Source: an uncultured Saprospiraceae bacterium
GTDB lineage: Bacteria > Bacteroidota > Bacteroidia > Chitinophagales > Saprospiraceae
Assembly: GCA_937924495.1 (NCBI GenBank)
Contig: CALDSS010000142.1
Span: 1-35,427, forward strand
Length of the DNA stretch: 35,427 nt
Direction of reading: 5' to 3'
Part shown: piece by piece, positions 5,127-25,176 of the stretch
How the letters are laid out: each line of letters starts with the position of its first letter
Numbering within the stretch: the first letter of the stretch is position 1
Notes under the pieces: model-generated
What the model was told of the DNA's origin: nothing
What the model saw: only the letters and a program-made list of their open reading frames with translations
Databases searched by the model: none
Program-made: the position numbers and the translations under genes

Positions 5127-8100
5127 TTATCGTTGCATTTGAATGTAATCTGCCATTTGCTCTCCGTCACCTAAATCGATAACGATATAATAAGTACCTG
5201 ACGGAAGCATCGCACCATAGAAATCACCTTTCCAAGGGAAATCATTTGAATACCCTTCTTTCTTAAATACAAGGTTGCCCCAACGGTTATAAACTCTTAC
5301 TGTATTGTTTGGATAAGAATCGATATTCTTGATAGTCAGGTAGTCATTTTCAAAATCACCATTTGGAGTGATACCCGTCATGATTTCCAATTCTCTACCG
5401 TCAACAGACATTAGTACCGTGATTTCGTGACAATTTCCAGCTGCATCGCAAATTTCTAAACAAAACTGATCGTCTCCAACGAAGTCTTGATTAGGAATAT
5501 AAGAGAAACAACTTCCAGCAGCTAATTCAACTGTTCCATTTTCAGGATTTTCGCAAAGCATCAACGTTGCATCTGAAGGAATTGGAAAATCATTCAATAT
5601 ACAAATGTTATTCAATGGAACATTCACCATTGTTTGCAACCTTGAAGTATCTGGATAATTCGCCTCCTGACAGTCTGAATCGACAGTCAAATTATCAACT
5701 ACGATTTCACATCCTTGAAAATCTTGAATGGTAACTGCATAAGAGTTTCCAGCAGAAAGGTTATTTGCTGTGTTGCTGATACTCTGAGAACCGCTCCATA
5801 AGAAAGCATAATTTCCATTTCCACCTTGTACCAATAATTGAATTGCTCCATCATCACCAACACATGTTTCATTGGTAATCGTTGGCATCACATCCCATGG
5901 ACTAACCGTGGAAGTCAACTCAACAGTTGTTTGAGCGGCACAGCCATTCTTATCAACGGAAATTACATAAGTTCCTTCTAATAAATTGGTGATTGGAGTG
6001 GTTCCAATAAAGTTATTGTTAAAGTCATAAATATCAAACTCGCTGCTTAGAGTTGAAGAAATGGTTCCACTATCAAAATCACCTGGACAGGTGAAGCCAT
6101 CAATTACAAAATCTTCATTGTCAACGGTTGGTTGATTGGGAGCAGCGAAGGTCAAAGATTCTGAAATCTGACATCCTCTCGCGTCGAAAATCGTAATTTC
6201 ATAAGTCCCTGCAGCAATATCCGTATAGCAAATTTGCTCACCAACACCTATATTATTTCTATCTCCTAAAGATGTTTGTACGATATAAGGGGCTTCACCG
6301 TTAGCCAACTCAAAACAAAGCTGACCATCGGCAAGCGCACAATCAGAAGGTTGAGTCTGATCAACTGATAATTGCATCGCATTTTCGACAATTGTAACTG
6401 GTAATACTGTTTCGCAACCTGTAGGATTCTCAACTACCAAGTTGTAATCTCCAGCAGGAAAACCAGAAATCATGGATAATTGGTCGCCATTGATTACTTG
6501 TACGATACCCAATTCAGCGACCGTTACTCGATACTCGCCCGTTCCATTCACTTGTAACGAAACAACTCCAGATGCATCTCCTGGACAGAATGGCTCGACA
6601 ATCTGCCCTAATAAAACTTCAGGAGCATCTGCAGACGCCAATGCAATTTGTTCAATTTGGAAACAACCTGTATTCTGATCTACGATTCTTAAAGTATAAA
6701 CACCAGCAGAAAGGTCTGTTGCACTACTTGAAGTTGAAACCGTTTCTCCGTTTTCATTCAACCATTCGATTGTAGAATTTGAAGGAGCATTCATGATTTC
6801 GATACTTCCATTTGAAGTATTACAATCAGGCATAAATATGGTTTGTGTAAGACCAAAATCAGTTTCCATCGCCTCAATTTCAACATTAAGGTTTGAAGCA
6901 CATCTTCCTTCGTCAGCTAAAGTAATGGAATACAATCCAGCAGCTAAATCAGCGAAGGTGGTCGTATTACTCATCAAAACAACGTCTTGCTGAATCACTC
7001 CGTTTGCATTACTAAAGGTATAAGTGTATGGAGCGCTTCCTCCGCTGATGCTTAACGCAAAGGAGCCAGTTGCATCATTACATTCTGTATTTGCTTTTTC
7101 AATTACCGTTAAGGTAGGTGTTTCGCTTCTGTATAGTTTGAAATTTTCAACTACGGTACATCCACTTTCTCCCTCAATGATTACTTCAAAATCAGTTGAA
7201 TCAGCAGTTGGCGTAGCTTCAAAAGTTAAGACACTGCCATTCGAGTTTTCATTTGAAAAATTACCACTTGAGTTGATATTATACGAGACGATATTCTCAC
7301 TAATTTCAATAGTAACTTCTTTTGGATTTCCATCACAACTATATGTTCTATCAATTGGATTTAAAACAGTAGGCGCAGCATTGTCCATTATCATCACAGC
7401 GCCCTGGCTGTAAGGACTCGTACAAGTTGCACCAGCAAATCTGATTTCAACCTCAAAAGTTCCACCAGCCAAACTAGTGAATTCATTATCAGTAGTCCAA
7501 GTTGCACCGCCATCAATACTGTATTCAACGCCAGTATCAGTTGACTCTACCGTTAAGGTTGCATCATTTGCGCCACAAGCGGTTGGAGCAGTAGTAGTAA
7601 CATTTGTAATCATAGGAGTCAATGGGCCGGTGAAAATCACATCATCCGCCCATTTTGTAGTACAACCCGTTTCTACACTTCTAACCATGATGCCATAAGT
7701 ACCTTTCGGAAGATCCAAGAAAGAACTATTAGAACTCCAAGTTAATCCACAATCAATACTATATTCTAAAGCATTTCCGCCGTCAGTTGCAGTGATTTTG
7801 ATAGAACCATCCTCTGTATCACACGAAGTCAAATCTTCGCTCAATACCTCAACAATAACAGGTGCTTGCGTTACTTCAACACGAACGGTGTCAACTGTTC
7901 CGCAGCCAGCCGTGCCGCCAACAGTAACAATATAAGTGGTAGAGGTAGAAACATTTGCAATCGGATTGGCAACCGTTGGGTCGCTCAAACCAGTAGCAGG
8001 AGACCATAAGTAAGATGTACCCGTCGATGCTGAAAGTGTTACTTCTTCACCACCACAAGCATTTACCGTAGTTCTTGTTCCTGAACCTGCACCAGCGCCA

Positions 8101-10361
8101 CCAATTGTAACAACATTAGAGGTCATGCTTGAACAGTTATTTGCGTCCGTAACCGTCAAAGTTGTAGTATAAGTACCTTCCATATCATAGACATGCGAAG
8201 GACTAACATCTGTTGAAGTATTCGTATCTCCAAAATCCCAAGAATAGGAAGCTAAACCACTTTGGCTTGGAGTAAAGTTTGTTGCATCACCTAAACAAAC
8301 TCCTGCAAAACTGAAGTCAGAACTTGGAGGTGCTAAGAGCGTAACTTCTACTTGGTCTGTAGTGCTACATCCTTGACCATTATCAGCTGTAACTGTATAA
8401 GTTGTTGAAATAGAAGGAGTTACCGTAATCGGCGTCCCAATGTCGCCATTTGACCAGGTGAAAGTGCCAGTACCACCAATCGTTTCTAATTGGAAAGAAG
8501 AACCTTCGCAATTAGCAGCTACTGGTTGTATTTGCACCTGCGGACAAATGATAATATAAGTCGTATCACAAATAGTTCCATCTACGTTATCACAATGAAT
8601 AACACAAACTTCATCAGTTTGCATAAAATCAGATTGTGGCACTAATTCAACACAATCCGATCCATTCGTAGGATTGACATTAACAAAAGAACCATTGCTA
8701 CAAACAGATGTCGTTCCTAAACCATTTGGAAGATCCAAAACCGTAGTCAAACACTCCGTTGTGGTTTGGTCAGTTGGAATCGTTACGTAAACCGTATCCG
8801 TAGGTAGGTTTGTTGGTGGCGGTGGTGGGTCATCCACACACGGCGCAGCATTGTTTGCATTTAAGCAAATTGGAACATCTGCTCCATAGGCAAATACAAA
8901 AAGTTGTTGACCAACATTTGCGTTTTGGCTATTTGGTGGAAAAAAGGCGTCCACATCGTTTTCGATGAGTTCCACTACTCCTCCGCCACCGCAATCGCCA
9001 TCATTCGTAAAACTGAACAATGGAATTTTTGTACCCTCAATATAATTTATATCAGAAGTTGGGAAAGTCGCTAATGAGATAGTAAAGTAATCATGATTTG
9101 GAGCCTCCATTGGGCTTGAATATGTTCCGTTTATACTAAATGATACATCTGGAACTTCAGATTGCAAATCACTGATGATTAATCCGCCAGCCGGAGCTTT
9201 TAACGTCACCTGTAAATTACTTGTAATATTTGAAGGAGATGCCCATGTAACATCAGACAATAACGAAACTTGATATCGTCCTCCTGAGAGTTGCTCAATT
9301 TCATAATACATAATACACGGATCGCCTGCACACCCTTCTAATTCAAACGGCCCGACCTGTGTAATACAAAGGTTTACTGTATTTCTAACTTGTATGTAAT
9401 AAGTACCTGCTTCCAATCCAGTAAACTCATTGCTAACTTGCCAAGTGGCGCCTAAGTCAACACTATATTCGATTGGTTCTCCTCTATCTGTTCTTGCATC
9501 AATGGTAATTGTACCATTTGCCGTATCACAATCTGGGTTGGTAAATTGCTGGTCAAGAATAATAGGACCCAATGGACCTGGGAGATTTATTACACCAACT
9601 TCTTCCAAACAAATAGAAGCAACGTCGCGAACCCAGATATTAAAATCTCCTGAATTGAGTCCAGTAAAAACAGGCTCATCCTGCCAAGTATCACCATCAT
9701 CAATACTATAAACTAAATCAAGTCCGAGATCAGTTGAAGCAAAAATTTCTATAACACCATCTGAATCACCACAAGTAGTAGGTGAAGTCAATTCTACACC
9801 ATTGAAGGTAATACCGCATCCTACATTAGATAAACAAGTATAACCTTGGTCGGCGTACGAACCAGAATATGTATTGACACCTAAGCCCGCACCTGCTACA
9901 GAAATAGCATTTCCAACATTAACATTTTGAGAATTTGGTGGTAAAAAAGGATCGTCAGTATTGTCTATGAATTCCAATGCGCCAGTACACGTGCCTATAT
10001 TTTCAAATGAAAAAACGGCTACTTCTTCTCCAGTTACATATTGAATGTCCATAGTGGAGCTAACTAAGGAAAAGGAAACATAATCAAACCCGCTATTTTC
10101 TTCAGGACTAACGACTTGGACGGATTTGTTCCACAACCCTTTAAAACTCATCATATTTCCTACATCAAAGCCTCCAGTTGGCACTCGCATGGAAAGTTGT
10201 GAGGAGACAGTAGTAGCAAGCGGCCCACTGTAATTTACATCTGGTCTAAAATAAACAATGTAGGTTTTATTATCTGGCTGCAGTGCAGCTCTAACTTTTA
10301 CTTGTGCAGATAAAACCTGAAAAGCAAATAGTCCAATTAATAGGAATAAAAGTTTTCTCAT
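5127..10361 (-). CDS. Giant modular surface protein with duplicated N-module, PKD and SprB-like repeats, type B T9SS domain
   Basis: This 1744-aa protein has a signal peptide (1-19, ending VLSAQ). A first copy of the cluster's N-terminal module spans about 20-176, with FDYVSF, FIDNTDDPF and PPNSQNVNVG. Two SprB-like repeats (177-345) carry YSIDDGDTW and YSVDLGATW. A second copy of the N-module spans about 346-505 (ELIENDVDAFF, PPNSQNANVG), followed by a proline linker near 511-517. A PKD domain lies at about 680-753 (SYSWDFGDTNTST...TVTDANNC). Further Ig/SprB-like repeats run to about 1560, and a Big/cadherin-like module spans 1570-1650 (IPNQDFVGDDQFCLEICD). The end is a gliding-motility-associated type B sorting domain (1661-1744: ITPNGDFENDYLTI, VRVYNRWGNLVF, final DYIQMQR). 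It is predicted to be exported by T9SS and held at the surface. Adhesion or gliding is inferred from SprB-like content only. Confidence 0.9.
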   Translation of the reverse strand: MRKLLFLLIGLFAFQVLSAQVKVRAALQPDNKTYIVYFRPDVNYSGPLATTVSSQLSMRVPTGGFDVGNMMSFKGLWNKSVQVVSPEENSGFDYVSFSLVSSTMDIQYVTGEEVAVFSFENIGTCTGALEFIDNTDDPFLPPNSQNVNVGNAISVAGAGLGVNTYSGSYADQGYTCLSNVGCGITFNGVELTSPTTCGDSDGVIEIFASTDLGLDLVYSIDDGDTWQDEPVFTGLNSGDFNIWVRDVASICLEEVGVINLPGPLGPIILDQQFTNPDCDTANGTITIDARTDRGEPIEYSVDLGATWQVSNEFTGLEAGTYYIQVRNTVNLCITQVGPFELEGCAGDPCIMYYEIEQLSGGRYQVSLLSDVTWASPSNITSNLQVTLKAPAGGLIISDLQSEVPDVSFSINGTYSSPMEAPNHDYFTISLATFPTSDINYIEGTKIPLFSFTNDGDCGGGGVVELIENDVDAFFPPNSQNANVGQQLFVFAYGADVPICLNANNAAPCVDDPPPPPTNLPTDTVYVTIPTDQTTTECLTTVLDLPNGLGTTSVCSNGSFVNVNPTNGSDCVELVPQSDFMQTDEVCVIHCDNVDGTICDTTYIIICPQVQIQPVAANCEGSSFQLETIGGTGTFTWSNGDIGTPITVTPSISTTYTVTADNGQGCSTTDQVEVTLLAPPSSDFSFAGVCLGDATNFTPSQSGLASYSWDFGDTNTSTDVSPSHVYDMEGTYTTTLTVTDANNCSSMTSNVVTIGGAGAGSGTRTTVNACGGEEVTLSASTGTSYLWSPATGLSDPTVANPIANVSTSTTYIVTVGGTAGCGTVDTVRVEVTQAPVIVEVLSEDLTSCDTEDGSIKITATDGGNALEYSIDCGLTWSSNSSFLDLPKGTYGIMVRSVETGCTTKWADDVIFTGPLTPMITNVTTTAPTACGANDATLTVESTDTGVEYSIDGGATWTTDNEFTSLAGGTFEVEIRFAGATCTSPYSQGAVMIMDNAAPTVLNPIDRTYSCDGNPKEVTIEISENIVSYNINSSGNFSNENSNGSVLTFEATPTADSTDFEVIIEGESGCTVVENFKLYRSETPTLTVIEKANTECNDATGSFALSISGGSAPYTYTFSNANGVIQQDVVLMSNTTTFADLAAGLYSITLADEGRCASNLNVEIEAMETDFGLTQTIFMPDCNTSNGSIEIMNAPSNSTIEWLNENGETVSTSSSATDLSAGVYTLRIVDQNTGCFQIEQIALASADAPEVLLGQIVEPFCPGDASGVVSLQVNGTGEYRVTVAELGIVQVINGDQLSMISGFPAGDYNLVVENPTGCETVLPVTIVENAMQLSVDQTQPSDCALADGQLCFELANGEAPYIVQTSLGDRNNIGVGEQICYTDIAAGTYEITIFDARGCQISESLTFAAPNQPTVDNEDFVIDGFTCPGDFDSGTISSTLSSEFDIYDFNNNFIGTTPITNLLEGTYVISVDKNGCAAQTTVELTSTVSPWDVMPTITNETCVGDDGAIQLLVQGGNGNYAFLWSGSQSISNTANNLSAGNSYAVTIQDFQGCEIVVDNLTVDSDCQEANYPDTSRLQTMVNVPLNNICILNDFPIPSDATLMLCENPENGTVELAAGSCFSYIPNQDFVGDDQFCLEICDAAGNCHEITVLMSVDGRELEIMTGITPNGDFENDYLTIKNIDSYPNNTVRVYNRWGNLVFKKEGYSNDFPWKGDFYGAMLPSGTYYIVIDLGDGEQMADYIQMQR

Positions 10362-10543
10362 GACAAATACTGTTTGGTGATCTGTTTTTTCCGAAGCAGG
10401 AGGGTTCGCTTCTTTAAGGATTCTTATTTAAGTAAGAGGGGTAAGAAATAAGTGAAGGGGGAATAACAGAAATTAATAAGCAATCATCTTACCAGAATTG
10501 TATTTTAAACCTAAAATTTCAAATATGTAAGTGTGGGCACAAG

Positions 10544-10571
10544 ACAAAACATGGGTTTACAAAACTTCGCT
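10544..10571 (+). repeat. Interspersed repeat, copy 2
   Basis: This is the partner of 4858-4887, same orientation. It lies in the 432-nt gap 10362-10793, which otherwise holds G-rich tracts at 10438-10441 and 10457-10461 and two terminators, but no gene. Confidence 0.5.
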
Positions 10572-10678
10572 TTCGCAAAATGCGATGATTTCAATGCTAT
10601 TCGCGAATTTTTTAAAAATTTAGTTTAAGCATTAAAACTCCTTACTACACAAAACATTAGAGTAAGTTCTAACAATAA

Positions 10679-10712
10679 AAGAACAGCCACACCTTTCGGC
10701 ATGACTGTTCTT
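10679..10712. terminator. Bidirectional terminator hairpin
   Basis: Fifteen consecutive pairs, three of them G-U on the minus strand, with a tetraloop. T-rich stretches follow on both strands (TTTTTG on plus, TTTTATTG on minus). It is the second of two hairpins behind the 280-aa gene. Confidence 0.7.
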
Positions 10713-10793: not shown

Positions 10794-11636
10794 TCACATT
10801 CTAATTTTTTGAAATTTATCTAAAGTGATGCTCCATGACGCTCCTTTCAACTTTAGGAAATAAGTTCCTGCTGCAAGGTTTGCAATTTGGAAAGGATGCA
10901 AATTATGTCCAGTAATCAAATCAATAGATTTGTGAGACATAGTTCTACCTAAAGCATCAACGATTTCTGCTTGTACATTTTCTGAAGGATATCCCCAATC
11001 AAATTCAAGGAAGATTTCAACTTCAGCTGGAATGGGATACAAATCAAAATCTGAGATTAACTCCTCAGAGTCGAATGTATGCGTATATAATTCTTGACAG
11101 TCCGCTCTGCCTTTTTCGTTGAAAATTCCACCGAAAGCATTGTGACCGTATCCATAAACTGCGATACTTTGACCTACATTTGCCATCATAGAATTGGGTG
11201 GCATGAATGGATCCGTTTTATTATCAATTAATTCAACAGGAGCGCTACAACCAAACTCGTTTGCAAAAGAAAGCACTGGAATTGAAACACCTTCTACATA
11301 AGGCAAGTGCAACAATCCTGAATTACGCATTGCAAAGGAGATGTAATCCACTTCAGGTGCTTCCTCAGGAGCATTAGAGCGAGAGTTATAATCCCATTCT
11401 ACACCTGGATACAGTCCTGTTACTTCTGTTGGAAAAAATAGCCCAGTTGGAGCTTTTACAGTTACTTGTGAAGCACCTGTTAGATTTGCTGGCATTTTGT
11501 AGGTTGCCATTGGGACCAAAGACACGATATATTTTTTAGTTGTCTTTTCATAGTCCATTCTGAATTGTACTTGTGCAAATATACCACTTACACAAAATAC
11601 TATCAAAACGATAGTGAGTAAAGAGTGTTTATACAT
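10794..11636 (-). CDS. Minimal member of the surface-protein family: N-module plus type A T9SS domain
   Basis: This 280-aa protein has a signal peptide (1-21, ending GIFAQ). The shared N-module spans about 22-180: QVQFRMDYEKTTKKYIVSL, KAPTGLFFPTEV, VDYISFAM, VELIDNKTDPFMPPNSMMAN and VGQSIAV. A type A sorting domain spans about 195-280 (DLYPIPAEVEIFLEFDW, AEIVDALGRTM, LAAGTYFLKL). It has no repeats between the two, so it shows that the N-module can stand alone as an exported unit. The PPNS...NVGQ form of the motif groups it with the neighbouring 1744-aa protein rather than with the two larger ones. A long hairpin lies in its upstream region (11711-11780). The function of the module is unknown to me. 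Confidence 0.85.
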   Translation of the reverse strand: MYKHSLLTIVLIVFCVSGIFAQVQFRMDYEKTTKKYIVSLVPMATYKMPANLTGASQVTVKAPTGLFFPTEVTGLYPGVEWDYNSRSNAPEEAPEVDYISFAMRNSGLLHLPYVEGVSIPVLSFANEFGCSAPVELIDNKTDPFMPPNSMMANVGQSIAVYGYGHNAFGGIFNEKGRADCQELYTHTFDSEELISDFDLYPIPAEVEIFLEFDWGYPSENVQAEIVDALGRTMSHKSIDLITGHNLHPFQIANLAAGTYFLKLKGASWSITLDKFQKIRM

Positions 11637-12100: not shown

Positions 12101-15100
12101 TTAATCAATTACTTCTGGCAACTGCTCTGTAATAAAGAAACTTGGGAACAGGTTCGGATTGTCAGGATGACTCAACACGTTGAAGAAAATCATCTGATCA
12201 ACATCATTGCTTAATCCTTGATACTTCACTTCTCCATCCATATTGGTATCACCACCATGATAACCTTCATAAATGAAGTTGAATTGGAAGTTCGTATTTA
12301 CTGGAGCAGTAAACACATCAAAGAATACTTTATCTCTATCTGGATTGGCTATACCAGCACCTTGATAGACAATGTAATTGTTACCATCTGCATTACCTCC
12401 CCAAAGCATCGCAAAACCTCCGCTTATTACCTGAGCATGTTCTCCATAAGTAGGCGTATCCACATCTGTAAAATCAACCATTGGAGCAGAGCCAGTGCTT
12501 GTTGAAAGACTGATCGCATTGGCTGTCATGACACCCAAGTGATTTCTATGTCTAATAGAAATATAGTAGGAAGCTGCACCATCAACTTGAAAATTGACTG
12601 GACTAACTCCATCTACATCTACCACATCGCCATCTCTTTGTACTAATGCTGAACGAGATTGAACAACCACTTTTGGATCAGCTGCTGACCGCAATTCGAC
12701 AAATACCCAATCTACGATGGCATCATTTCCGGAGACACCGAATGTCGTTGCATCATCTACAACTGTTTCTCCTCCGCCTGCACCAACATGAATAAAAGGT
12801 GTTGTTACAAAATCAGGTTTTAAGTCCGTATATGGTTCGATTGCTGGTAAGAATCCTTTGTTCCTAATATCATCATCCATCAATCCTGCATTGGTATCCA
12901 TCGCACCTTGTAAGAAGACTCTAAGGTTTGAATAAACAATATCAGAACCACCAGTTTGACAGTCAGGCCCGGTTGCATCTGGCACGCAAGGGTCATTATC
13001 ATCTGGATCGTAGTTGGCTGAACCTGGAGCAGCATCGCCAAAGAATCCATCATTATCATTATCGGCAGAAGGCACGCAGCTTCCAACCGTTGGGTCTGGA
13101 ACACATGCATTTGCATCATCTGGATCAAATAATGGATCCGTGAAACTTACTCCTGTAATGTATCCATCACCATCTAAATCATTGTTTCCAGTACAAGCAC
13201 CTGTTGTGTTATCAGGAACACATGGGTCGCTATCATCTGGATCGTAGTTTGGATTTGAGGAATCGATTCCGCTAAAGAATCCATCATTGTCATTATCCTG
13301 TGCATTTGCTAAACAAGCTGAAGAGCTTTGATTTGGAATACATGGATTGTTATCATCTGGATCGTATTGAGGATTAGATGGATCAACACCACCTTTATAT
13401 CCATCACCATCGTTATCCGTAACATTCGCATTACATGCAGGTGAATTAGTATCTGGCACACATGGGTTAGCATCATTCGGATCGAAATTCGGATCGAATG
13501 GGCTAATACCTGCCATGTATCCATCACCGTCATTATCCGTTGCAGTCAATCCACAGTTAGGATTATTTGCATCAGGATCACACGCATTCAATGGATCTGT
13601 TCCGTTGGTTGTTTCATCAATATCAGAAATACCGTCGTTGTCTGAATCACTATTTGGATTGTATTGACCAGCATCATCACCGTCATTCACACCATCATTA
13701 TCATCATCTGGGTCATTTCCATTAACAATACCATCGTTGTCAAAATCACAACCATTGAATGTCCAATCAGGAACACATGGATTGTTATCATCTGGATCGA
13801 ATAGTGGATCATTTGGATCAAGGTTACTTGCATATCCATCTCTATCTGCATCCTGACCAACACATGCTGGATTGTTTTCTAATGGATCACATGGATTTAA
13901 TGGGTCAGAATCTGTGTTGGGATCGTAATTTCCATCAAAACCAGTTTCTGCATTATCAACCAATCCATCCAAATCAGAATCAGAGTTTTTATCATAATCA
14001 TCAACGTCATCAGCATCAAGAACACCATCAGCATCATCGTCATCATCAATTGAGTTAATCAATCCATCATTATCGAAATCACAATTACCTACAGTGAAAT
14101 CTGGAACACATGGATTGTTATCATCTGGATCAAAACGTGGGTGACCTTGCGCATAGGTTGGTGAATATCCGTCACCATCCACATCATCTGCATTACAAGC
14201 AAATGCATTAGGATTAGGGTCGCATGGATTTAATGGATCCGAACCGTTGAACGTCTCCTCTACATCGCTTACGGTATCTCCATCGGTATCACTGTGCGGA
14301 TCATAAGGGTCAATGTCCAAATTGTCATCTACGCCATCGCCATCATCATCTGGGTCGGTAGCATTTTGAATGCCATCATTATCAAAATCACATGATGGGA
14401 AAGTTGCCAAAGGATCGCATTGATCTAATGCACTGCTCTCTCCTGGATCATGAATTCCATTAAGATTATCATCTTCGATTCCATCCTGAATACCGTCAAA
14501 ATCAGTATCTGGGTTTCTTGGATTCATTTCTCCGATGTTTACGATTCCATCACGGTTGCGATCTTCTAAACCATCAGAAACCATATCTCCATCGGTATCA
14601 TAATTCAATGGATTGGTATCAATTCCTGCATCATAATCTCCGTCACCACCTGTCTCAACGATGTCTGGAATAAGGTCGTTGTCGCTATCAGAATATTCAT
14701 CATACGGATCAACATCTGAAACATCATTTACACCATCATTATCATCATCTGGATCAACTGAGTTGATTAATCCATCACCATCATAATCGCATTTTGCAGC
14801 TTCTAAACTTGGGATACAAGGATCTGAATCATTCGGATCGTAGAATGGATGACCTGGTGCAAAATTCTCGAAAAATTGGTCACCGTCATTATCTACTCCA
14901 CTACAAGCTAATGCGTTAGGATCTGGCTCACAAGGATTTAATGGGTCTGTATCACTTGAAGTAGGATCGTAACTTCCATCGTTACCCGTTTCGTCAGCGT
15001 CAGAAATACCATCTGCATCACTGTCACTTTCTGGGTTGTAATTTTCTACATCATCTGTATCATTTACACCGTCTCCATCATCGTCATCATCCACATCATT

Positions 15101-18100
15101 TGTCAATCCGTCACCATCAAAATCACATGAAGGTGTATTATTGATTGGGTCACAGAAATCTAATGGATCAGTTTCGATTGAAGTATCAACGAATCCATTT
15201 TTGTTGATGTCTTCATCTCCATCTAAATATCCGTCACCATCCGTATCAGGATTCAAAGGGTCTGAATCAATTCCAACATTATAAACACCGTCGTCTTTTG
15301 TTTCTTTGGTGTCAGAAATTCCATCATTATCAGAATCACTATTCGGATCTAATCTATCCACGTCATCTACATCTGCAACACCATCACCATCATCATCTGA
15401 GTCCACATCATTATTCAATCCATCTCCGTCAAAATCACAAGTATCAAGGAATGCATCAGGATCACATGGGTCAAGTGGATGACTTTCTGTAGGTTCAACA
15501 AAACCGTTGAAGTTTGAATCTTCTTGGCCATCATCGTATCCATCACCATCTGTATCAGGATTCAATGGATTAGTTTCAGTTGGATCAAGATTTCCATCTT
15601 GATTCGCATCTTCAACCCCATCTTCGATACCATCGTTGTCAGTATCTTTATCTAATGGATTTGTATCACTTCCCGGATTGTAAATTCCATCTAAACCAGT
15701 TTCGATATTATCAGGAATTTCATCGTTATCAGAATCACTATTTGGATCAAATTGATCAACATCCTGCACATCAGCAACGCCATCACCATCATCGTCTGGA
15801 TCTATATCATTAGTTTGACCATCATTGTCAAAATCACATTCATCATAAATGGCTAATGGCTCACATCTGTCTAATGGATTAGATTCACCAGTTGCCGGAT
15901 TATAAATGCCATCAAAATTTAAGTCTTCTTCACCATCTGAAAAACCATCATTATCTGAATCAAGATCTAATGGATCCATTTCTCCAGGATCTTGCTGTCC
16001 ATTTCTATTTTGGTCTTCTTCACCATCTGAAACAAAGTCATCATCCGTATCTGGGTCTAAAGGATTGGTATCAATCCCAGGATCATAAGAGCCATCCATT
16101 CCCGTTTCTACGTTGTCAGAAATTCCGTCATTATCACTATCACTATTCGGATCGAAGTTATTCACATCATTAATATCATCTACCCCATCATTATCATCAT
16201 CTGGATCATCGGCATTTAAAATACCATCATTGTCATTATCACAAGTAGTATTTGTTCCAACAGGATCACATGGATCCAATGGATTACTTTCTCCCGCTTG
16301 CATAAAACCATCTTGGTTAGCATCTTCTACACCATCATCTACCCCATCAAAATCCGTATCTGCTAATAAAGGATCTGTTTCATTCGGATCTTTAGAACCG
16401 TTTTGATTTGCATCTTCTACTCCATCAATAATTCCATCACCATCTGTATCATTATCAATCGGATTGGTATCAATTCCAGCATCATAAGAGCCATCCATTC
16501 CTGTTTCTACATCATCAACGATACCGTCATTATCACTATCACTATTTTTATCATAATCATCAACGTCCTGAATGTCAGGCACTCCATCATTATCATCATC
16601 GGTATCCACATCGTTATTCAAGCCATCGCCATCAAAATCACAATTGAAAGCTGAACCATCAGGGATACATGTATTTGCATCGTCTGGATCATATTGAGTA
16701 GAACCTGTTGGATAATTTGCAAAATATCCATCACCATCATTATCAATATCATTACATGACCCTGCATTTGAATTGGGGTCACAAGGATTTAATGGATCTG
16801 ATCCGTTGGTTGTTTCGTTAATATCTGAAATCAAATCTCCATCAGAATCACTATTTGGATCATAAGGATTGACGTCATCGACGTCATTTACACCATCACC
16901 ATCATCATCTGGGTCTAGTTGATTTGAGATACCATCGTTGTCAAAATCACATGGGTCATTGATTGCATTCGGATCACATTCATCTAATGGGTCACTTTCT
17001 CCTGCATCAACCACGCCATTTCCATTAGCATCTTCTGTTCCATCCCACAAAGCATCACCATCTGTATCCACATTTAAAGGATTCATTTCTCCTGCATCAA
17101 CCACTCCATTTTGGTTGGTATCCTCTACGCCATCATCTACGCCATCGTTATCTGTATCAGCATCGAGCGGATTGGTATCCGTTCCTGCATCGTAAGAACC
17201 ATCTGCGCCAGTTTCTATGTTGTCAGAAATTCCATCTTGATCAGAGTCTGAGTTTACGTTGACTTGATCCACATCATCAATATCATTCACCCCATCGTTA
17301 TCATCATCTGGATCAAGTTGATTTATGATGCCATCATTATCAAAATCGCAAGTAGGGGCAGCAGTACTTGGATTACATGGATTTAATTCATCTGGATCAT
17401 GCAATGGATCTGTTGCTGGCAAACTTCCGTAATATCCATCACCATCATCATCTGTTCCGATACATGCTATTACGGTATTATCCGGATCACAAGCATCTAA
17501 TGGATCGGAGCCAGCATTGGTTTCATCTAAATCGCCAACTCCATCGCCATCTGAATCACTAGTGGTGTCAAAATTCTGAATATCTTGTATATCATCCACT
17601 CCATCTCCGTCATCATCTGCATCTACATCATTCGCTTGACCATCGTTATCCCAATCGCAAGAAGCATAAATTGGCTTTGGGTCACATATATCTCTAGGGT
17701 CAGATTCTCCTGGATCAACTTGTCCATTTCGGTCTGCATCCTCTACGCCATCATCAATTCCATCTCCGTCAGTATCAGCGTTTAAAAAATTCGTTTCGGT
17801 TGGTGGGTCGTAAATTCCATTATTATTAAGGTCTTCTATAATGTTAACCAATCCATCGCCATCGTCATCGCGGCAATCAGCATCAGTTCCATAATTACCT
17901 GTATAAAAATATTGAGCGCCAGTTAAAAGGTCAAAAGCAGAAAGCTCATTCCCTGGGTTATTCCCTATAGAGTTAGGCAACTGAGCGAAGGGATCGAACT
18001 GGTTATCTATTAGATAGATTTCTCCAGCACAATTGGTGGTTCGTTGAAAGTTGATAAGCTCAACCTCTACGCCACTTTGATAAATAATGGTAGGAACATC

Positions 18101-18418
18101 AGTAGCAAAACCAACTGACATATAATCCTTGAAAGGGTTCTCAATTGGAGCATTTACGGTAGATGGATTAGGATCCCATGTTCCGTTTACTGAAGTAATC
18201 GTCGAGATACTAAATCCATTAGGAACAACTAAAGTTATTTGGCCCGAACCCGTGACAGTTGTACCAGAAGTATTAGTTGTTGGTTTTGCATAAACCCGGT
18301 AGGTAAGTCCATCTCCATCAATTCTTACACTAAACTCAATTTGTGCAACGAGAGTTGTGGACATTAGAAAAAAGAGTGCTACCAGATAATTTTTAAAACT
18401 GTAAAAATTTACTTTCAT
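12101..18418 (-). CDS. Giant acidic surface protein with TSP3-like calcium-binding repeats
   Basis: The start is taken at 18418, where MKVNFYSFKNYLVALFF begins a normal signal peptide; the frame extends 14 codons further to 18460. The product is then about 2105 aa. The N-module (about 27-180) has KDYMSVGF, YLIDNQFDPF and LPNSIGNNPGN. About 1640 residues of Asp-rich repeats follow. Twelve long units open with CDFDNDG, then DPDDDNDGVND, then SDSDNDGISD, several with ETGxDGSYD and DTDGDGxxDGxEDxNxxG. Then come five short units of about 40 aa (DNDGDGY...YDPDDxNPCVPD). Paired cysteines recur and suggest disulfides. The last 280 residues are a C-terminal domain shared with the 2185-aa neighbour, ending ITEQLPEVID. 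By homology with thrombospondin type 3 repeats, the rod should bind many Ca2+ ions. No standard T9SS signal is seen. Confidence 0.9.
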   Translation of the reverse strand: MKVNFYSFKNYLVALFFLMSTTLVAQIEFSVRIDGDGLTYRVYAKPTTNTSGTTVTGSGQITLVVPNGFSISTITSVNGTWDPNPSTVNAPIENPFKDYMSVGFATDVPTIIYQSGVEVELINFQRTTNCAGEIYLIDNQFDPFAQLPNSIGNNPGNELSAFDLLTGAQYFYTGNYGTDADCRDDDGDGLVNIIEDLNNNGIYDPPTETNFLNADTDGDGIDDGVEDADRNGQVDPGESDPRDICDPKPIYASCDWDNDGQANDVDADDDGDGVDDIQDIQNFDTTSDSDGDGVGDLDETNAGSDPLDACDPDNTVIACIGTDDDGDGYYGSLPATDPLHDPDELNPCNPSTAAPTCDFDNDGIINQLDPDDDNDGVNDIDDVDQVNVNSDSDQDGISDNIETGADGSYDAGTDTNPLDADTDNDGVDDGVEDTNQNGVVDAGEMNPLNVDTDGDALWDGTEDANGNGVVDAGESDPLDECDPNAINDPCDFDNDGISNQLDPDDDGDGVNDVDDVNPYDPNSDSDGDLISDINETTNGSDPLNPCDPNSNAGSCNDIDNDGDGYFANYPTGSTQYDPDDANTCIPDGSAFNCDFDGDGLNNDVDTDDDNDGVPDIQDVDDYDKNSDSDNDGIVDDVETGMDGSYDAGIDTNPIDNDTDGDGIIDGVEDANQNGSKDPNETDPLLADTDFDGVDDGVEDANQDGFMQAGESNPLDPCDPVGTNTTCDNDNDGILNADDPDDDNDGVDDINDVNNFDPNSDSDNDGISDNVETGMDGSYDPGIDTNPLDPDTDDDFVSDGEEDQNRNGQQDPGEMDPLDLDSDNDGFSDGEEDLNFDGIYNPATGESNPLDRCEPLAIYDECDFDNDGQTNDIDPDDDGDGVADVQDVDQFDPNSDSDNDEIPDNIETGLDGIYNPGSDTNPLDKDTDNDGIEDGVEDANQDGNLDPTETNPLNPDTDGDGYDDGQEDSNFNGFVEPTESHPLDPCDPDAFLDTCDFDGDGLNNDVDSDDDGDGVADVDDVDRLDPNSDSDNDGISDTKETKDDGVYNVGIDSDPLNPDTDGDGYLDGDEDINKNGFVDTSIETDPLDFCDPINNTPSCDFDGDGLTNDVDDDDDGDGVNDTDDVENYNPESDSDADGISDADETGNDGSYDPTSSDTDPLNPCEPDPNALACSGVDNDGDQFFENFAPGHPFYDPNDSDPCIPSLEAAKCDYDGDGLINSVDPDDDNDGVNDVSDVDPYDEYSDSDNDLIPDIVETGGDGDYDAGIDTNPLNYDTDGDMVSDGLEDRNRDGIVNIGEMNPRNPDTDFDGIQDGIEDDNLNGIHDPGESSALDQCDPLATFPSCDFDNDGIQNATDPDDDGDGVDDNLDIDPYDPHSDTDGDTVSDVEETFNGSDPLNPCDPNPNAFACNADDVDGDGYSPTYAQGHPRFDPDDNNPCVPDFTVGNCDFDNDGLINSIDDDDDADGVLDADDVDDYDKNSDSDLDGLVDNAETGFDGNYDPNTDSDPLNPCDPLENNPACVGQDADRDGYASNLDPNDPLFDPDDNNPCVPDWTFNGCDFDNDGIVNGNDPDDDNDGVNDGDDAGQYNPNSDSDNDGISDIDETTNGTDPLNACDPDANNPNCGLTATDNDGDGYMAGISPFDPNFDPNDANPCVPDTNSPACNANVTDNDGDGYKGGVDPSNPQYDPDDNNPCIPNQSSSACLANAQDNDNDGFFSGIDSSNPNYDPDDSDPCVPDNTTGACTGNNDLDGDGYITGVSFTDPLFDPDDANACVPDPTVGSCVPSADNDNDGFFGDAAPGSANYDPDDNDPCVPDATGPDCQTGGSDIVYSNLRVFLQGAMDTNAGLMDDDIRNKGFLPAIEPYTDLKPDFVTTPFIHVGAGGGETVVDDATTFGVSGNDAIVDWVFVELRSAADPKVVVQSRSALVQRDGDVVDVDGVSPVNFQVDGAASYYISIRHRNHLGVMTANAISLSTSTGSAPMVDFTDVDTPTYGEHAQVISGGFAMLWGGNADGNNYIVYQGAGIANPDRDKVFFDVFTAPVNTNFQFNFIYEGYHGGDTNMDGEVKYQGLSNDVDQMIFFNVLSHPDNPNLFPSFFITEQLPEVID

Positions 18419-18566
18419 TTTTTTAGAGTTTTCTTCTCTTATTTTTTGTGAGACTCCCATCTCTTAAAAAAGAAAATGGGCAGATTATAACCTTGGGTGG
18501 GATTTGAAATTGCGACCTAATAAAAGAGACATTTTTTAAAGATGTAGTTTTCTTAAAACTCAGATT

Positions 18567-18618: not shown

Positions 18619-21600
18619 TTATGGTAATTGTTCTAATACAATGAAATTCGCAAGTGTATTTTCATTACCTGGGTGTAATAGAACCGTATTCAGAAGAATC
18701 ATGTTTCTATCATTATTTGGTCCCTGATAAATTGACACACCATCTAAGTTGTAATCCTCTAAGAGGTATCCTTCTAAGATGTGGTTTGCGTTTGGACCGC
18801 CTTGTGGGCCCGTATCATTATTCGGGTCAGAAAGTACTTTCAAGAAAATCTGAAGTACATCTGTGTTTGGTCCTTGATAGATAACTCTTCCATCAGGTCT
18901 CAAATCTCCTGCCCATAAGTAGTTGTTTTTGGTTTTGACATTACCAAAGTTGGTGTTGAACATTGGATTATTTCCATGTCTTACAATGGCAGTATCTCTA
19001 AAGTCAACTACTCTTACATCTGGCGAAAGTTCAGGAGCATCAACCGTCATTACACCTAAGTGATTTCTGTGACGTAATGCAACATAATATTCACCAGCTA
19101 CAACAGTCGTATCAAAAGTAACTGAAGATACACCATCAACATCAACTACATCCCCATCAGATTGAATCAAAGCTGCACGAGTAGCAACTACACTATCAAT
19201 TTTGTTGGCATGTCTTAATTCTACAAATACCCAATCAACGATTCTATCATCACCAGTTACGGCCAATACCGTTGGGTCAGTAATGGTTTCACCACCCCCA
19301 GGTCCAGCGTGCACGAATGGTCTGATTGTATCAATTTGTCCATTAACTTGAGCAACATATTTTATATCAGAATATGGCTCAACAGTTGGAATCAATCCTT
19401 TGTCATTCAATTTAGTGCTCATCTTCTCATTGATAGTTGCAACACCACTAAACGAAGGTCCGTAAAGAAGGCCTTTCACGTCAAGTGCTATACCGAAACA
19501 AGCAGAGCTTATCAAAGGATCACATGGGTCACATGGGTTTCCGTCAAGGACTCCGTCACCATCAGTTTCTTCTTGGTTACTGATTCCGTCACCGTCCCAA
19601 TCTTCATCACCATCATCGTCACCGTCCATGTCAACGTCCACATTGAATTGTCCATAATTCAAACAAGAGTATTCCCAAACATCATCCAATCCATCATTAT
19701 CATCATCTTCATCAATGTCATTGATTTCTCCATCCATGTCGAAATCACAGAATCCTAAAGTATCAGATACGATGTGTAACAATGCTGAGTCTGAGTAAAA
19801 TGGAGAACAGGTTGGAAGCTCTACTCTCAAACGGAATACGGTGTCACCACGCGTCTGCATGATATCCATAGAATCCAATTGCAACAAAGTAGTTTCTGTA
19901 CCATGAACCCAAGTATCATCATTTACATCTGACCACATGTTAGTAGAAACATCTAACACCTCCCATTGGTAAGTCATTACACCTGAACCACCGTTGGTAA
20001 CACCAACTTGGAAGAAGTATGCTTCGTTACGACAAGCAGTCAATCCTTCTAATGGGTCGAAAGTCAATGGCCCTTCTACAGTCAATCTTGCATTATCAGA
20101 GTAAATAATATCACAGGTATTGGTCCAAATACCGCAACGGTATCTTCTACCATATAGACCCGCAACATCAGCAATATCTAAGCGGGGTGAGTTTACATTA
20201 CTGTATGGAGCAGCGTTGGCCAAATCAGTCCAGATGACACCATCCGTACTTACTTGCCATTGATAATTAACAGTTCCACCAGTTCCATTGTCAGCTGCAA
20301 TTTCGAAGAATGCAGGCTCACCAGAACATACGGTAGTATCGTTTGGCATATCAGTAAATTCGATTGGCCCTTCGATAGTCAACGTTGCAGGATTAGTCCA
20401 AACCGTTGCACATGTTGAAGTCCAAACTCTTACTCTGAATTCAGCACCGTTCAATGTATCAGAATTTATATCAGATACACTTAAAGTATCAGAACGAACA
20501 CCATTGTAGAAACTATCAAGATTAGAAGTCAAATCCATCCAACCCATTCCTCTATTGATTTCCCACTGATAATTCACAGTACCTGCACCCATGTAATTCA
20601 ACTGAGTCGTAAAGATTACTGAGTTGTTATTACAATCTGTGATAGGCAATGGATCGGTTGGTGTCAATGGTCCTTCTACTGTAATGATTCCTGGCTCAGA
20701 ATATTCGTTAGGACAAGTAGAGGTACTGATTTTTGCTCTGTACCAGTTTTGGTCTAAACCAGCCACATCAGTAATGATCAAAGTATCATTTGTTACGTCT
20801 GTGTAAATTGGATCAGACTCCAATGCGTCTTGCCAAGTAATACCTCCATTTTCGCTATACTCCCATTGGATGTCAACGGCACCATTACCTGGATTGGTAA
20901 AAGCAGCGACCATAATGGTATCGCTACCAGCACATACAATAATATCATCAGGATGATTTGTAAAGTCTAATGGTCCTTCTACGTTAAGTAATGCCTCATC
21001 AGAAGTAATGCTTGTACATTCTCCAGTTTGAATAATTACTCTGAATCTGTCTCCATTATCAGTTGCATCAATTTCACCTTGTTGTAAAACAGGTGTTGTA
21101 TAACCGTTGAATGCTTCAGTTCCAGCCGTTGAGATATCAACCCATCCCGCTGCATCTTCTGCTCTGTTTATTTGCCATTGATATTCTAAAGTTCCACCAC
21201 CCAAGTTTTGAGTAGAGATGAAGAATACTACATCTTCTGCATCACATGCAATTACATCAGTTGGATCATTTGTGATAGAGATAGCTCCTTCAACGGTCAA
21301 GATGGCATCGTCAGAATACTGAACACCACATGTTGGGAAGAAGTAAGATACTCTGTACCAGTTTTGGTTGTAGGTATGATCCGCTCCTGTAATTACTAAA
21401 TTTGTAGAATTGATTCCTGAATAAACAGGGTCAGCAGCAGAAACATCTGCCCAAGTTGCACCAGCATCTGTACTTACTTGCCACTGCCATACTGGTGTTC
21501 CAGATGCACCGTTTGTGAAAGCAATATCAAACTGAGCTACCCCTCCTGAACATATTGTATCATGTGCTGGCTCAGTAGTAATTTCTACTGCACCTTCAAT

Positions 21601-24600
21601 TGCTAAACGTGCACCATCAGAGATAGTCACCGCACAAGTTCCTGTCCAGATTCTTACTCTAACCGAGTCACCATTCATTTCTTCAACAAGTGGTGCAATA
21701 CTAACAGTATCAGTAGTTGTACCGTTGTAAGTGGTATCATTCACCAAGTCAACCCAACCCGCACCTGGGTCAGAAGCTCTCTTGATTTCCCATTGATACA
21801 TTATATCTCCAGAACCGTCATTTGTTACGCCAGCAAAAACTTGTGCGTTTCCTTCTGTACAAAGTGTCACATCTACAGGTTGACCGTCAGGGTTAATATC
21901 AAATGGCCCTTCAACGGTTAATTCTGCAAATTCTGAGATTACCCAATCACACTCACCAGTTCTTACTTTTAATCTATATCTATTATCGTATAATCCAGTT
22001 ACATCAGAAATCTGTAAATGTCTCGTATCTACACCTGAGTAAACACCACCGTTAGCCATTTCAGAGTAGTTTACTGTATCTTCAGAAATTTCCCATAAAT
22101 ACTCAAGTACTCCATCATTTTCACTTTCAGCTAATGCAAAGAACTCCGCTGGATTACCCGAACAAACCGTAGTATCGTTTGGCATGTCAGTGAACTCAAG
22201 TGGTCCTTCAATTACCATTCTTACACATACAGAAGCAATAGAAACACAGGTAGGTGTGCTAACGATTACTTTAAGCGAATCTCCATCATTACCACCTTGA
22301 TCAGTATTTAATGATAGTCTTGGAGTATTCACTCCATTATATACCGAGTTATCAACAAGATCAATCCATCCACCTCCTAAGGCAGATTTCAATTGCCATT
22401 GATACGCAACATTTCCTGCTCCAGGGTTGATAACAACCGTTTCAAAAATTGCTTGGTCATTTCTACAAATTGTATCATTGACCGGTTGAGAATCAATTGA
22501 CAAAGGTCCTTCTACAGAAAGCAATGCTTCAATACTTGCAACCGCACCACAGGAATGTGTTCTTGCTTCTACTCTATAAAGAAATTGATTTTGTAGATAT
22601 GAAATTCCCGTAAGGGTCAAATCAGAGGTAGCAGCGCCACTATAGACAACACCACCGGTAGATGCGCCATCAGCAACATCATTCCAAGTTGTTCCACCGT
22701 CAGTACTTACTTGCCATGCAAAGTCAAAATTACCTTGAGCAACAGTTGCACTTGATGTGAATGTATGATTGTCACCATCACAAATATCAATGTCTTGTGG
22801 CTCAGAAGTGAACTCAGCTCCATCAGATATTTCTATAAATGCATGACGAGAAGTGTCTCTTGAACACTCTCCTGACCAGAAAATTACACGGTAATAATTG
22901 CCATTTACGGTGTTTGAAACATCTACAGATAACGTATCAGTAGAAGCTCCATTATAAGTCATATCATTCATGAGGTTTGTCCAAGTGACTTCATTATCCG
23001 TAGATACTTGCCACTGGTAACTAACCGTTCCAGCATTCGCACTTAAACTTTGGTTCTCGACACCAACGATGAATTCCAATGCCTGAGCAGAACAATCTAA
23101 AATATCGTCTGGCTCGTCGGTAAGTACGATAGGGCCTTCAACAGTTAATAACCCTTCCGTTGAATTTACAACTGAACAAGTAGGTGTTGTATAAGCTCTT
23201 CTGAAAAGATTATCAGAATAAGTTCTAACATTACTTACGGTCAAGGTGCCAGTAGTTGTACCGACAAAATCAGCGCCTGAAGCAGGCAACCAAGTCGTAC
23301 CACCATCAGTAGAATATTCCCAGCTACCACTTACCGTTCCGAGTGGTGCGCTTGCTTCAGAATAGAATTCTGCAGTTTCGTCATTACATACTGATGTGTC
23401 TCTTGTTTCAAGATCTACCATGATTGGGCCTTCAACATTCAATGTTGCCCAAGCTGAGAATACTGTATCACAGTGCTCTGTGGAAATGGCTAAACGGAAT
23501 TGATATAAATTCAAACCATCAATATCTGAGATTTGAAGTGAATCCGTATCCGCACCTGCGTAAGGCGTACCGTTTACTACATTTGAGTACCCTGCCGCAG
23601 TAGCTGAAGTTCTTACTTGCCAACTATAAATAATTGAAGTATCTGCGTTTATAGAGCCATTTGAAGAAGGTGCATAGAAAGCTGTTGGGTTTTCTACACA
23701 TTCTATTACGTCTGTAGGATTAGCAGTAATTGCTAAAGGGCCTTCAATTGCAACAATTGCTTGACCTCTAACTGTATCTACAGGACAACCTCTACTATCC
23801 ACAACAGAAACAACTCTGAAAGTATCCGTAGCAGTCAATGTAATATTAATTGGGTCGCCTGATTCGTAATTATTAAGTGTTGTATAATTACAATCTTTAT
23901 CTTTATAAACAACGGTATATGGTGACCATCCGTCAACGATGTCAACAAAGATGTCAACATTATCTTCAGAAGCACACATTACAGTATCACCTCTCATTTC
24001 AGCAGCTAATGGGTGAATTGGGTCACAAGCATTACAGGCTTCAGAAGCATCTGCTTCTAAACTGAAATTACCATCACCATCCAAATCTTCATTTAAAGCT
24101 ACATCGTATAAACCGTTACCATTCAAATCTTCAGGAATGGTATCAAAGTTTCCGTCACCGTCTCTATCTTCACTCATGGCAGCATCGTACACACCATCGC
24201 GGTCAAGGTCTTCTGCTAAGAGAGAGAAGTTACCATCACCATCTAAATCTTCATCAAGTGATGCATCTAAAACACCATTACCATTTAAATCTTCACCAGC
24301 ATCAAGGATTCCGTTGCCGTTATAATCCTCATCAATACAGCTATCATAAAGGCCGTTACCATTCAAATCTTCAGAAATTGGATCAAAGTTTCCATCACCA
24401 TTCAAATCTTCATTAATCACTAAATCCAACACACCATTGCCGTTCATATCCTCAGAGAACTCATCCCAGTTTCCGTCACCATTCAGATCTTCATCTAAGG
24501 CAGTATCCCAAGAACCATTTCCATTTAAATCTTCAGAAATTGGATCCCAGTTTCCATCGCCATTAGTATCTTCTTGAGCATCCAATAGTCCGTCGCCATC

Positions 24601-25176
24601 ACAATCATTACAGCTCCAGCCAGATAAAGCATAATTGCGCGACCATGCATATAAATACAAAATTGGCAAATAACCTTTATCAATAACATCAAAGTTGTTA
24701 CCAGGATTATTATTAGCTGAGTTGGGTAAAACATTAAAAGGATCGGTATTATTATCGATCAAGTAAAGAGTATCTGGACAAGGTCCTACTTTTTCAAATG
24801 TAAAAAGAAGGGTCTCTGTCGTATCAGATAAACCATCGTTTGGAAAACTAGACAAATATCCAATACTAATATAATCATAGTTTGGATTCTCTGATGGAGC
24901 ATTAACACGCGCATTTTGCGACCAGATACCGTTTACGTTTGTCATATTGGCGAAAACGAAACCAGTAGGTGCAACAATAGTGGCCTGCGCAGATCCCACA
25001 TCGACATTATTCGACGGAGACTGGATTGACCCATTGTGTTTAACAAAAACTCCCCATCTAGATGTGTCATTGGGTAATAATTGAAGTTTCATTTCTACTT
25101 GTGCAAATGTAGTCGTAAGACCTAGAAGCAATAGAAAAGCAGACAATAAGAACTTCAATGTAAATGTCTGTCTCAT
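18619..25176 (-). CDS. Giant surface protein with EF-hand-like and 13 Ig-like repeats
   Basis: This 2185-aa protein has a signal peptide (1-26, ending TTTFAQ) and the N-module (about 27-188: YDYISIGYL, LYLIDNNTDPF, LPNSANNNPGN). Calcium-type Asp loops (190-377) alternate as EDLNGDGNFD and EDLNGNGLYD. A PKD-like segment (about 385-480) precedes thirteen Ig-like modules of about 100 aa (485-1800). Each has a Cys near the start (TTVCSG), a YQWQVSTDGG core, a Y-R-V strand with a second Cys, and a closing LTVEGP. A short TSP3-like stretch (about 1805-1890) leads into the C-terminal domain (1896-2185: VDWVFVELR, DGDVVDVDGVS, RHRNHLGVMT) and two dockerin-like loops, ending VLEQLP. It is the first gene of the cluster in transcription order. 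Surface adhesion is inferred from architecture. Confidence 0.9.
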   Translation of the reverse strand: MRQTFTLKFLLSAFLLLLGLTTTFAQVEMKLQLLPNDTSRWGVFVKHNGSIQSPSNNVDVGSAQATIVAPTGFVFANMTNVNGIWSQNARVNAPSENPNYDYISIGYLSSFPNDGLSDTTETLLFTFEKVGPCPDTLYLIDNNTDPFNVLPNSANNNPGNNFDVIDKGYLPILYLYAWSRNYALSGWSCNDCDGDGLLDAQEDTNGDGNWDPISEDLNGNGSWDTALDEDLNGDGNWDEFSEDMNGNGVLDLVINEDLNGDGNFDPISEDLNGNGLYDSCIDEDYNGNGILDAGEDLNGNGVLDASLDEDLDGDGNFSLLAEDLDRDGVYDAAMSEDRDGDGNFDTIPEDLNGNGLYDVALNEDLDGDGNFSLEADASEACNACDPIHPLAAEMRGDTVMCASEDNVDIFVDIVDGWSPYTVVYKDKDCNYTTLNNYESGDPINITLTATDTFRVVSVVDSRGCPVDTVRGQAIVAIEGPLAITANPTDVIECVENPTAFYAPSSNGSINADTSIIYSWQVRTSATAAGYSNVVNGTPYAGADTDSLQISDIDGLNLYQFRLAISTEHCDTVFSAWATLNVEGPIMVDLETRDTSVCNDETAEFYSEASAPLGTVSGSWEYSTDGGTTWLPASGADFVGTTTGTLTVSNVRTYSDNLFRRAYTTPTCSVVNSTEGLLTVEGPIVLTDEPDDILDCSAQALEFIVGVENQSLSANAGTVSYQWQVSTDNEVTWTNLMNDMTYNGASTDTLSVDVSNTVNGNYYRVIFWSGECSRDTSRHAFIEISDGAEFTSEPQDIDICDGDNHTFTSSATVAQGNFDFAWQVSTDGGTTWNDVADGASTGGVVYSGAATSDLTLTGISYLQNQFLYRVEARTHSCGAVASIEALLSVEGPLSIDSQPVNDTICRNDQAIFETVVINPGAGNVAYQWQLKSALGGGWIDLVDNSVYNGVNTPRLSLNTDQGGNDGDSLKVIVSTPTCVSIASVCVRMVIEGPLEFTDMPNDTTVCSGNPAEFFALAESENDGVLEYLWEISEDTVNYSEMANGGVYSGVDTRHLQISDVTGLYDNRYRLKVRTGECDWVISEFAELTVEGPFDINPDGQPVDVTLCTEGNAQVFAGVTNDGSGDIMYQWEIKRASDPGAGWVDLVNDTTYNGTTTDTVSIAPLVEEMNGDSVRVRIWTGTCAVTISDGARLAIEGAVEITTEPAHDTICSGGVAQFDIAFTNGASGTPVWQWQVSTDAGATWADVSAADPVYSGINSTNLVITGADHTYNQNWYRVSYFFPTCGVQYSDDAILTVEGAISITNDPTDVIACDAEDVVFFISTQNLGGGTLEYQWQINRAEDAAGWVDISTAGTEAFNGYTTPVLQQGEIDATDNGDRFRVIIQTGECTSITSDEALLNVEGPLDFTNHPDDIIVCAGSDTIMVAAFTNPGNGAVDIQWEYSENGGITWQDALESDPIYTDVTNDTLIITDVAGLDQNWYRAKISTSTCPNEYSEPGIITVEGPLTPTDPLPITDCNNNSVIFTTQLNYMGAGTVNYQWEINRGMGWMDLTSNLDSFYNGVRSDTLSVSDINSDTLNGAEFRVRVWTSTCATVWTNPATLTIEGPIEFTDMPNDTTVCSGEPAFFEIAADNGTGGTVNYQWQVSTDGVIWTDLANAAPYSNVNSPRLDIADVAGLYGRRYRCGIWTNTCDIIYSDNARLTVEGPLTFDPLEGLTACRNEAYFFQVGVTNGGSGVMTYQWEVLDVSTNMWSDVNDDTWVHGTETTLLQLDSMDIMQTRGDTVFRLRVELPTCSPFYSDSALLHIVSDTLGFCDFDMDGEINDIDEDDDNDGLDDVWEYSCLNYGQFNVDVDMDGDDDGDEDWDGDGISNQEETDGDGVLDGNPCDPCDPLISSACFGIALDVKGLLYGPSFSGVATINEKMSTKLNDKGLIPTVEPYSDIKYVAQVNGQIDTIRPFVHAGPGGGETITDPTVLAVTGDDRIVDWVFVELRHANKIDSVVATRAALIQSDGDVVDVDGVSSVTFDTTVVAGEYYVALRHRNHLGVMTVDAPELSPDVRVVDFRDTAIVRHGNNPMFNTNFGNVKTKNNYLWAGDLRPDGRVIYQGPNTDVLQIFLKVLSDPNNDTGPQGGPNANHILEGYLLEDYNLDGVSIYQGPNNDRNMILLNTVLLHPGNENTLANFIVLEQLP

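Follow-up and report, generated by a model that had tools for sequence, protein, structure and literature searches.

The window analysed here, the whole 35,427 nucleotides of contig CALDSS010000142.1 from an uncultured Saprospiraceae bacterium (GCA_937924495.1), carries four tandem genes whose products, on balance, probably form a non-cellulosomal surface scaffold joined by cohesin-dockerin-like contacts, in which two giant proteins are plugged into sockets anchored through the type IX secretion system (T9SS) and chained head to tail. The genes, which like all of their features given below lie on the minus strand, encode a scaffold-like protein of 1744 amino acids (aa) with a signal peptide, two modules, PKD and SprB repeats and a T9SS type B tail (5127..10361), a 280-aa anchor-type protein with a signal peptide, one module and a T9SS type A tail (10794..11636), and two giants of 2119 aa (12101..18460) and 2185 aa (18619..25176). 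Each giant combines a signal peptide, a predicted cohesin-fold module, a long repetitive body, a beta domain and a dockerin-like doublet, with no T9SS C-terminal domain; the body consists of long TSP3-like DxDxDG repeats in the former, and of Asp-rich repeats plus, by eye, about 14 immunoglobulin (Ig)-like repeats in the latter. A first-pass annotation of this DNA had described four tandem genes sharing a signal peptide and a common N-terminal module of about 160 residues but ending in three different ways, and open reading frame (ORF) calls together with pairwise BLASTP bear this out, the three kinds of C-terminus being the type B tail (1744 aa), the type A tail (280 aa) and a common unit of about 290 residues without a library match (both giants). 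All four products open with a hydrophobic segment resembling a signal peptide, after which comes the module, and the start of the 2119-aa ORF is probably the second Met (residue 15), a minor correction.

The module is present in five copies in the window, and comparison of their sequences recovers the two subtypes that had been described: PPNS..NVG in the first (9822..10301) and second (residues 349-511; 8829..9317) modules of the 1744-aa protein and in the 280-aa protein (11091..11570), and LPNS..NNPGN in the 2119-aa (17873..18340) and 2185-aa (24610..25098) giants. Pairwise identities among these copies are 30-45% (BLASTP), and since the best E-values between different copies range from about 1e-7 to 1e-30, most of them below 1e-12, the resemblance goes well past what chance would give. 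In the alignment, 20 columns never vary, among them D-Y, P-x-E, one Cys, I-x-N, D-x-F, PNS, N-x-G and a final Cys. By sequence the module is also as nameless as the first-pass annotation had held it to be: no Pfam or NCBIfam model matches it in the window proteins, the same libraries give no consistent family over 73 module relatives (scattered one-off matches were judged chance), and profile comparison with cohesins came back empty.

Beyond the window, three more copies lie on contigs C33, C125 and C82 of the same genome, one being a protein of 290 aa whose module is of NPGN type and whose end looks like a T9SS tail, and two being 218-220-aa proteins with little besides a signal peptide and the module. 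A scan of GTDB genome contigs gave 29 module loci, mostly from Saprospiraceae and all in metagenome-assembled genomes labelled Bacteroidota, and a profile of the 73 sequences finds the module in 23 of 150 genomes of the bacterial family but in only 3 of 395 genomes, counting that of the window, when the whole phylum is sampled. Relatives frequently carry modules in tandem, as many as five occurring in one partial protein and several in another of 3832 aa, and these multi-module proteins resemble scaffoldins. We also observed nine loci, among them those on C125 and C82, that encode a signal peptide and one module in about 210-240 aa with no T9SS tail recognised by eye; some of these sit directly after an anchor gene, and such proteins could be periplasmic partners or caps.

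Structure prediction gives the module a cohesin-type fold. An AlphaFold2 model of the module of the 280-aa protein, made with the 73 sequences, has a mean predicted local distance difference test score (pLDDT) of 93.2 and a predicted template modelling score of 0.88. When this model is searched against the PDB with Foldseek, ranks 1-16 are cohesins or cohesin-like modules (best E 1.2e-3), and in VIA-align ranks 1-37 are cohesins or cohesin-containing constructs, rank 27 being titled only as a protein-protein interaction module. Alignment with a Clostridium perfringens cohesin gives Z 11.0 and a root-mean-square deviation of 3.1 over 122 residues, and the first non-cohesin VIA-align row stands at Z 7.6. 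The profile and structure prediction that the first-pass annotation had proposed, once built and searched, thus returned a confident cohesin-type model without a library match; the annotation's idea of an undescribed module was to fall if a known domain such as cohesin matched, and such a match is present by predicted fold and absent by sequence profile. The fold itself is not new, because the predicted fold matches cohesins, and the safe statement is that the module has a predicted cohesin fold and is not a Pfam Cohesin member by sequence; the module family and the pairing set out below appear to be undescribed within what could be searched. A sequence-only PDB search with the module profile returned nothing but chains of interferon-activable protein 202 (E 0.004) plus one weaker designed protein, which we judged to be chance matches since the fold search disagrees.

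The proposed partner of the module lies at the other end of the giants, whose last ~290 residues are homologous and comprise, in this order, a beta domain recognisable by DWVFVELR and RHRNHLGVMT, a pair of repeats and an EQLP tail. Each repeat of this doublet has the pattern D-x-N-x-D-G-..-Y-Q-G-..-N-D followed by a hydrophobic helix-like stretch, and the D-x-N-x-D-G repeats are visible in the doublet alignment, the first loop being degenerate in the 2119-aa giant and the model unreliable there. In the 2185-aa giant, the beta domain (DWVFVELR domain; 18919..19494), possibly X-module-like on a weak structural match, is followed by a dockerin-like doublet of subtype AGDLRPDGRVIYQG with the EQLP end (18622..18918); in the 2119-aa giant, the beta domain (12407..12943) is followed by a dockerin-like doublet of subtype GGNADGN..YQG (12104..12406), whose second loop reads GDTNMDGEVKYQG. 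Of the 150 family genomes, 78 contain this unit, whole or in part. Twenty other beta-domain copies in relatives precede short doublets with 12-residue loops, 16 of which match Pfam Dockerin_1 (PF00404; best 2.3e-9), and hhalign aligns the YQG doublets with these sister doublets at a probability of 96.4% and E 1.1e-9. Because the sister doublets stand behind the same beta domain, match Dockerin_1 and align with the YQG doublets, we read the giants' tails as divergent dockerins, an assignment by transitive homology through sequence intermediates. Direct searches gave fainter signals: choice-of-anchor X is touched by 4 of 16 C-terminal units (E 0.037 at best), other Pfam and NCBIfam matches of these 16 are scattered one-offs judged chance, the first Foldseek row for the low-confidence C-terminal model is a weak match (E 0.021) to an X-dockerin chain of a type II cohesin complex, and the VIA Z of that model is likewise weak, at most 4.5. 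Separately, two relatives each hold about 240 first-look DWVFVELR-domain candidates (17 scored in each); the sampled candidates end in canonical dockerin doublets, and almost no Pfam cohesin was found in both genomes.

The two smaller proteins carry the surface anchors. The 280-aa protein ends in a T9SS type A sorting domain (PF18962 / TIGR04183; 10818..11042) and the 1744-aa protein in a type B sorting domain (PF13585 / TIGR04131; 5130..5384). Proteins with a type A tail become covalently attached to lipopolysaccharide, and those of type B bind to PorP-like proteins (PMC9143113), so with these tails the modules of both proteins should be displayed on the surface; reading of the window ORFs by eye recognised no PorP-like gene beside the 1744-aa gene, the neighbours not having been profile-searched. 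Short downstream proteins usually have such a tail: 9 of 10 short module proteins directly downstream of YQG doublets match TIGR04183 (type A), 7 of them above the cut-off. In the sister systems with canonical dockerin doublets, the next gene often encodes a 250-410-aa secreted protein, and all 9 short downstream proteins tested from these systems have a Por_Secre_tail (T9SS type A); tried as a bridge against Pfam Cohesin, the sister-system downstream proteins gave no match. Six loci directly or soon downstream of canonical dockerin giants belong to a small secreted family (FCLRL..LGSSNLQF..W.YNGGTTQTV) with T9SS tails; this family probably adds another kind of cohesin-like socket for which Pfam has no model.

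Module and doublet are linked across genomes, along chromosomes and by subtype. Scoring both by profile in the 150 family genomes, we found the YQG doublet in 21 of 23 module-positive genomes vs. 18 of the 127 others (Fisher P 5e-13). A module starts no more than 1 kb downstream on the same strand for 37 of the 78 doublets of module-positive genomes, against an expectation of 0.05 under random placement, and in genomes that are module-negative by profile the gene after the doublet gene often still encodes a secreted protein whose domain follows the same pattern but is more divergent. One relative has near-identical duplicated loci about 4 Mb apart, in each of which two divergent module genes come after a YQG-doublet gene. 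Over 36 adjacent pairs, the more similar two doublets are, the more similar their downstream modules tend to be (r 0.785), a value reached in 19 of 20000 within-genome permutations of the pairings (P about 0.001), which keep genome relatedness, and in 60 of 20000 when the same-genus genome is left out. In the window, an NNPGN-type module (2119-aa giant) comes after the AGDLRPDG-type doublet (2185-aa giant) and an NVG-type module (280-aa protein) after the GGNADGN-type doublet (2119-aa giant); the nearest relatives show this order of subtypes as well. The shared partner or anchoring role that the first-pass annotation had suggested for the module thereby gains support and becomes specific, as co-occurrence, adjacency and subtype match all point to a recurrent dockerin-like partner encoded in the neighbouring gene.

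Based on these patterns, we propose that the N-terminal module acts as a cohesin-fold socket, and that the C-terminal doublet of each giant would be a divergent dockerin-like plug carried behind the beta domain in the manner of an X-dockerin dyad. The 280-aa and 1744-aa proteins would be exported by the T9SS and fixed to the surface via their type A and type B tails, and because these tails would hold both proteins at the surface, their sockets would be the anchoring points. Following the subtype pairing, the plug of the 2119-aa giant would fit the PPNS..NVG sockets of the 280-aa protein and of both modules of the 1744-aa protein, and that of the 2185-aa giant would fit LPNS..NNPGN sockets: the N-terminus of the 2119-aa giant, the 290-aa anchor encoded on another contig, and the N-terminus of the 2185-aa giant itself. 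The resulting fibre would run from the surface through 280/1744 and 2119 to 2185, possibly lengthened by more copies of the 2185-aa giant, with the TSP3-like DxDxDG calcium-binding or Ig-like repeats in the giants' bodies forming the stalk. We infer that socket and plug would bind physically, that binding would depend on calcium, that assembly would follow this order, and that the product would function as an adhesin or matrix fibre. A broader version, which we regard as doubtful, is a general Saprospiraceae assembly route in which a small, co-encoded cohesin-fold protein with a T9SS tail would recruit giants without any T9SS signal, perhaps as early as the periplasm and with joint export, with hundreds of plug-bearing proteins in some genomes.

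Several observations weigh against such a scaffold. On the socket side, hhalign of the module against 31 Pfam-positive cohesins of the same bacterial family gives 0.3%, i.e., no relation, and Pfam Cohesin (PF00963) matches neither the window proteins nor any of the 73 modules. On the plug side, Pfam Dockerin_1 has no direct match among the window C-termini or 40 YQG doublets, the doublet loops are lengthened by the YQG insert with one of them degenerate in the 2119-aa giant, and the model of the C-terminal unit is poor exactly at the doublet (pLDDT <50). As for the linkage, 41 of the 78 doublets have no detected downstream module (some contigs end there and some neighbours are divergent), the Fisher and permutation tests leave phylogeny partly in, and gene pairs passed on as one cassette could show both linkage and subtype match in the absence of direct binding. 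Finally, the giants have no T9SS tail, and the model leaves their export across the outer membrane unexplained.

In a different account, the beta domain and doublet are a non-canonical export or sorting signal of the giants and have nothing to do with the modules, which would be ordinary adhesive beta-sandwiches. The unit stands at the C-terminus in almost every copy observed, has a conserved EQLP-like tail and occupies the position of a T9SS tail, and some genomes contain more than 200 first-look candidates with almost no Pfam cohesin. However, the doublet is dockerin-like, unlike the beta-sandwich T9SS tails, and neither the giants nor the 16 C-terminal units match any T9SS model of Pfam or NCBIfam; moreover, a sorting signal explains neither the subtype matching nor the frequent small secreted module protein with its own T9SS tail directly downstream, and we consider this account unlikely. 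We give little credence to the idea that modules and doublets travel together as a cassette in a repeat-rich adhesin locus with no direct contact between them: duplication spreads tandem genes of the same kind and would give correlated subtypes, which is compatible with the adjacency and permutation data, but the order of doublet gene followed by small module gene with T9SS tail recurs in many genera despite very divergent sequences, so a functional pair is favoured, and the folds match a known binding pair. That the modules bind glycans or minerals in a CBM3-like use of a general fold, as adhesive tips without a partner protein, would suit their exposed N-terminal position and the CBM3 chains among the Foldseek matches, but is quite improbable, since cohesins clearly outrank CBM3 in both Foldseek and VIA-align and the linkage to a dockerin-like doublet is not predicted.

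If the cohesin-dockerin-like scaffold is correct, a divergent pair tied to type IX secretion would explain how giants without a T9SS signal could be retained at the surface, would assign a function to several unnamed domains found in many Saprospiraceae genomes, and would add a new orthogonal plug-and-socket pair whose pairing prediction is directly testable.

The surroundings of the four genes were read by eye. Directly upstream of the giants is an 879-aa protein with two AAA+ ATPase domains of CbbX/EccA type (25859-28498), and downstream of the 1744-aa gene is a secreted protein of 587 aa that looks like a parallel beta-helix and has a T9SS-type tail (1975-3738). Farther off, a 628-aa oxaloacetate-decarboxylase-like alpha subunit with a biotinyl domain and a small OadG-like gene coding for 119 aa look ordinary (32670-34920).

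Cohesin-dockerin pairs are known mainly from the cellulosomes of anaerobic Firmicutes, and cohesins and dockerins occur outside cellulosomes as well. We rejected a cellulosome reading of the window because, by Pfam and NCBIfam, none of the four proteins has an enzyme domain. Pfam cohesins are present in 140 of the 150 family genomes, and the window genome has seven cohesin and seven dockerin matches elsewhere. Within it, eight loci on contigs C132, C67 and C136 encode large proteins that combine a canonical Pfam dockerin and a Pfam cohesin in one chain, with about 80 residues between them and an apparent T9SS-type tail behind; these are a second, distinct cohesin/dockerin set. A genome study of a T9SS-bearing Bacteroidetes reports cohesins and dockerins as absent there, as in other Bacteroidetes genomes (PMC5831590). 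Our literature search found no description of a cohesin/dockerin pair in Saprospiraceae and one incidental paper only, most subscription journals lying outside its coverage.

Compared with cohesins (PF00963), including the non-cellulosomal one of a Clostridium perfringens glycoside hydrolase (PDB 2vo8), the window module is alike in beta-sandwich type and length, in occurring as tandem copies within scaffold-like proteins, and in its link to dockerin-type partners, but it has no detectable sequence or profile relation to them, has a conserved Cys pair and a long LIDN..DPF..PNS loop, and sits at the N-terminus of T9SS-type surface proteins. The type II cohesin - X-dockerin pairs of cellulosomes (PDB 4wi0, 4u3s, 2b59) share with the giants a beta domain followed by a C-terminal duplicated repeat apparently of calcium-loop type, with a weak structural match, whereas the window loops are extended by the YQG insert and followed by an EQLP tail, no cellulases are involved, and the pairing proposed here is one suggested by sequence patterns. 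The Dockerin_1 (PF00404) doublets of other Saprospiraceae occupy the same position behind the same domain and give a profile-profile match of 96%, but have 12-residue loops and W-N-N-R-N helices where the window doublets are of YQG type. Relative to ordinary T9SS type A and B cargo, the 280-aa and 1744-aa proteins bear such tails and the giants bear neither. Together, these comparisons single out what appears to be new in this locus: a sequence-divergent socket family, the YQG plug subtype, and the repeated genetic association of both with anchors that carry T9SS tails.

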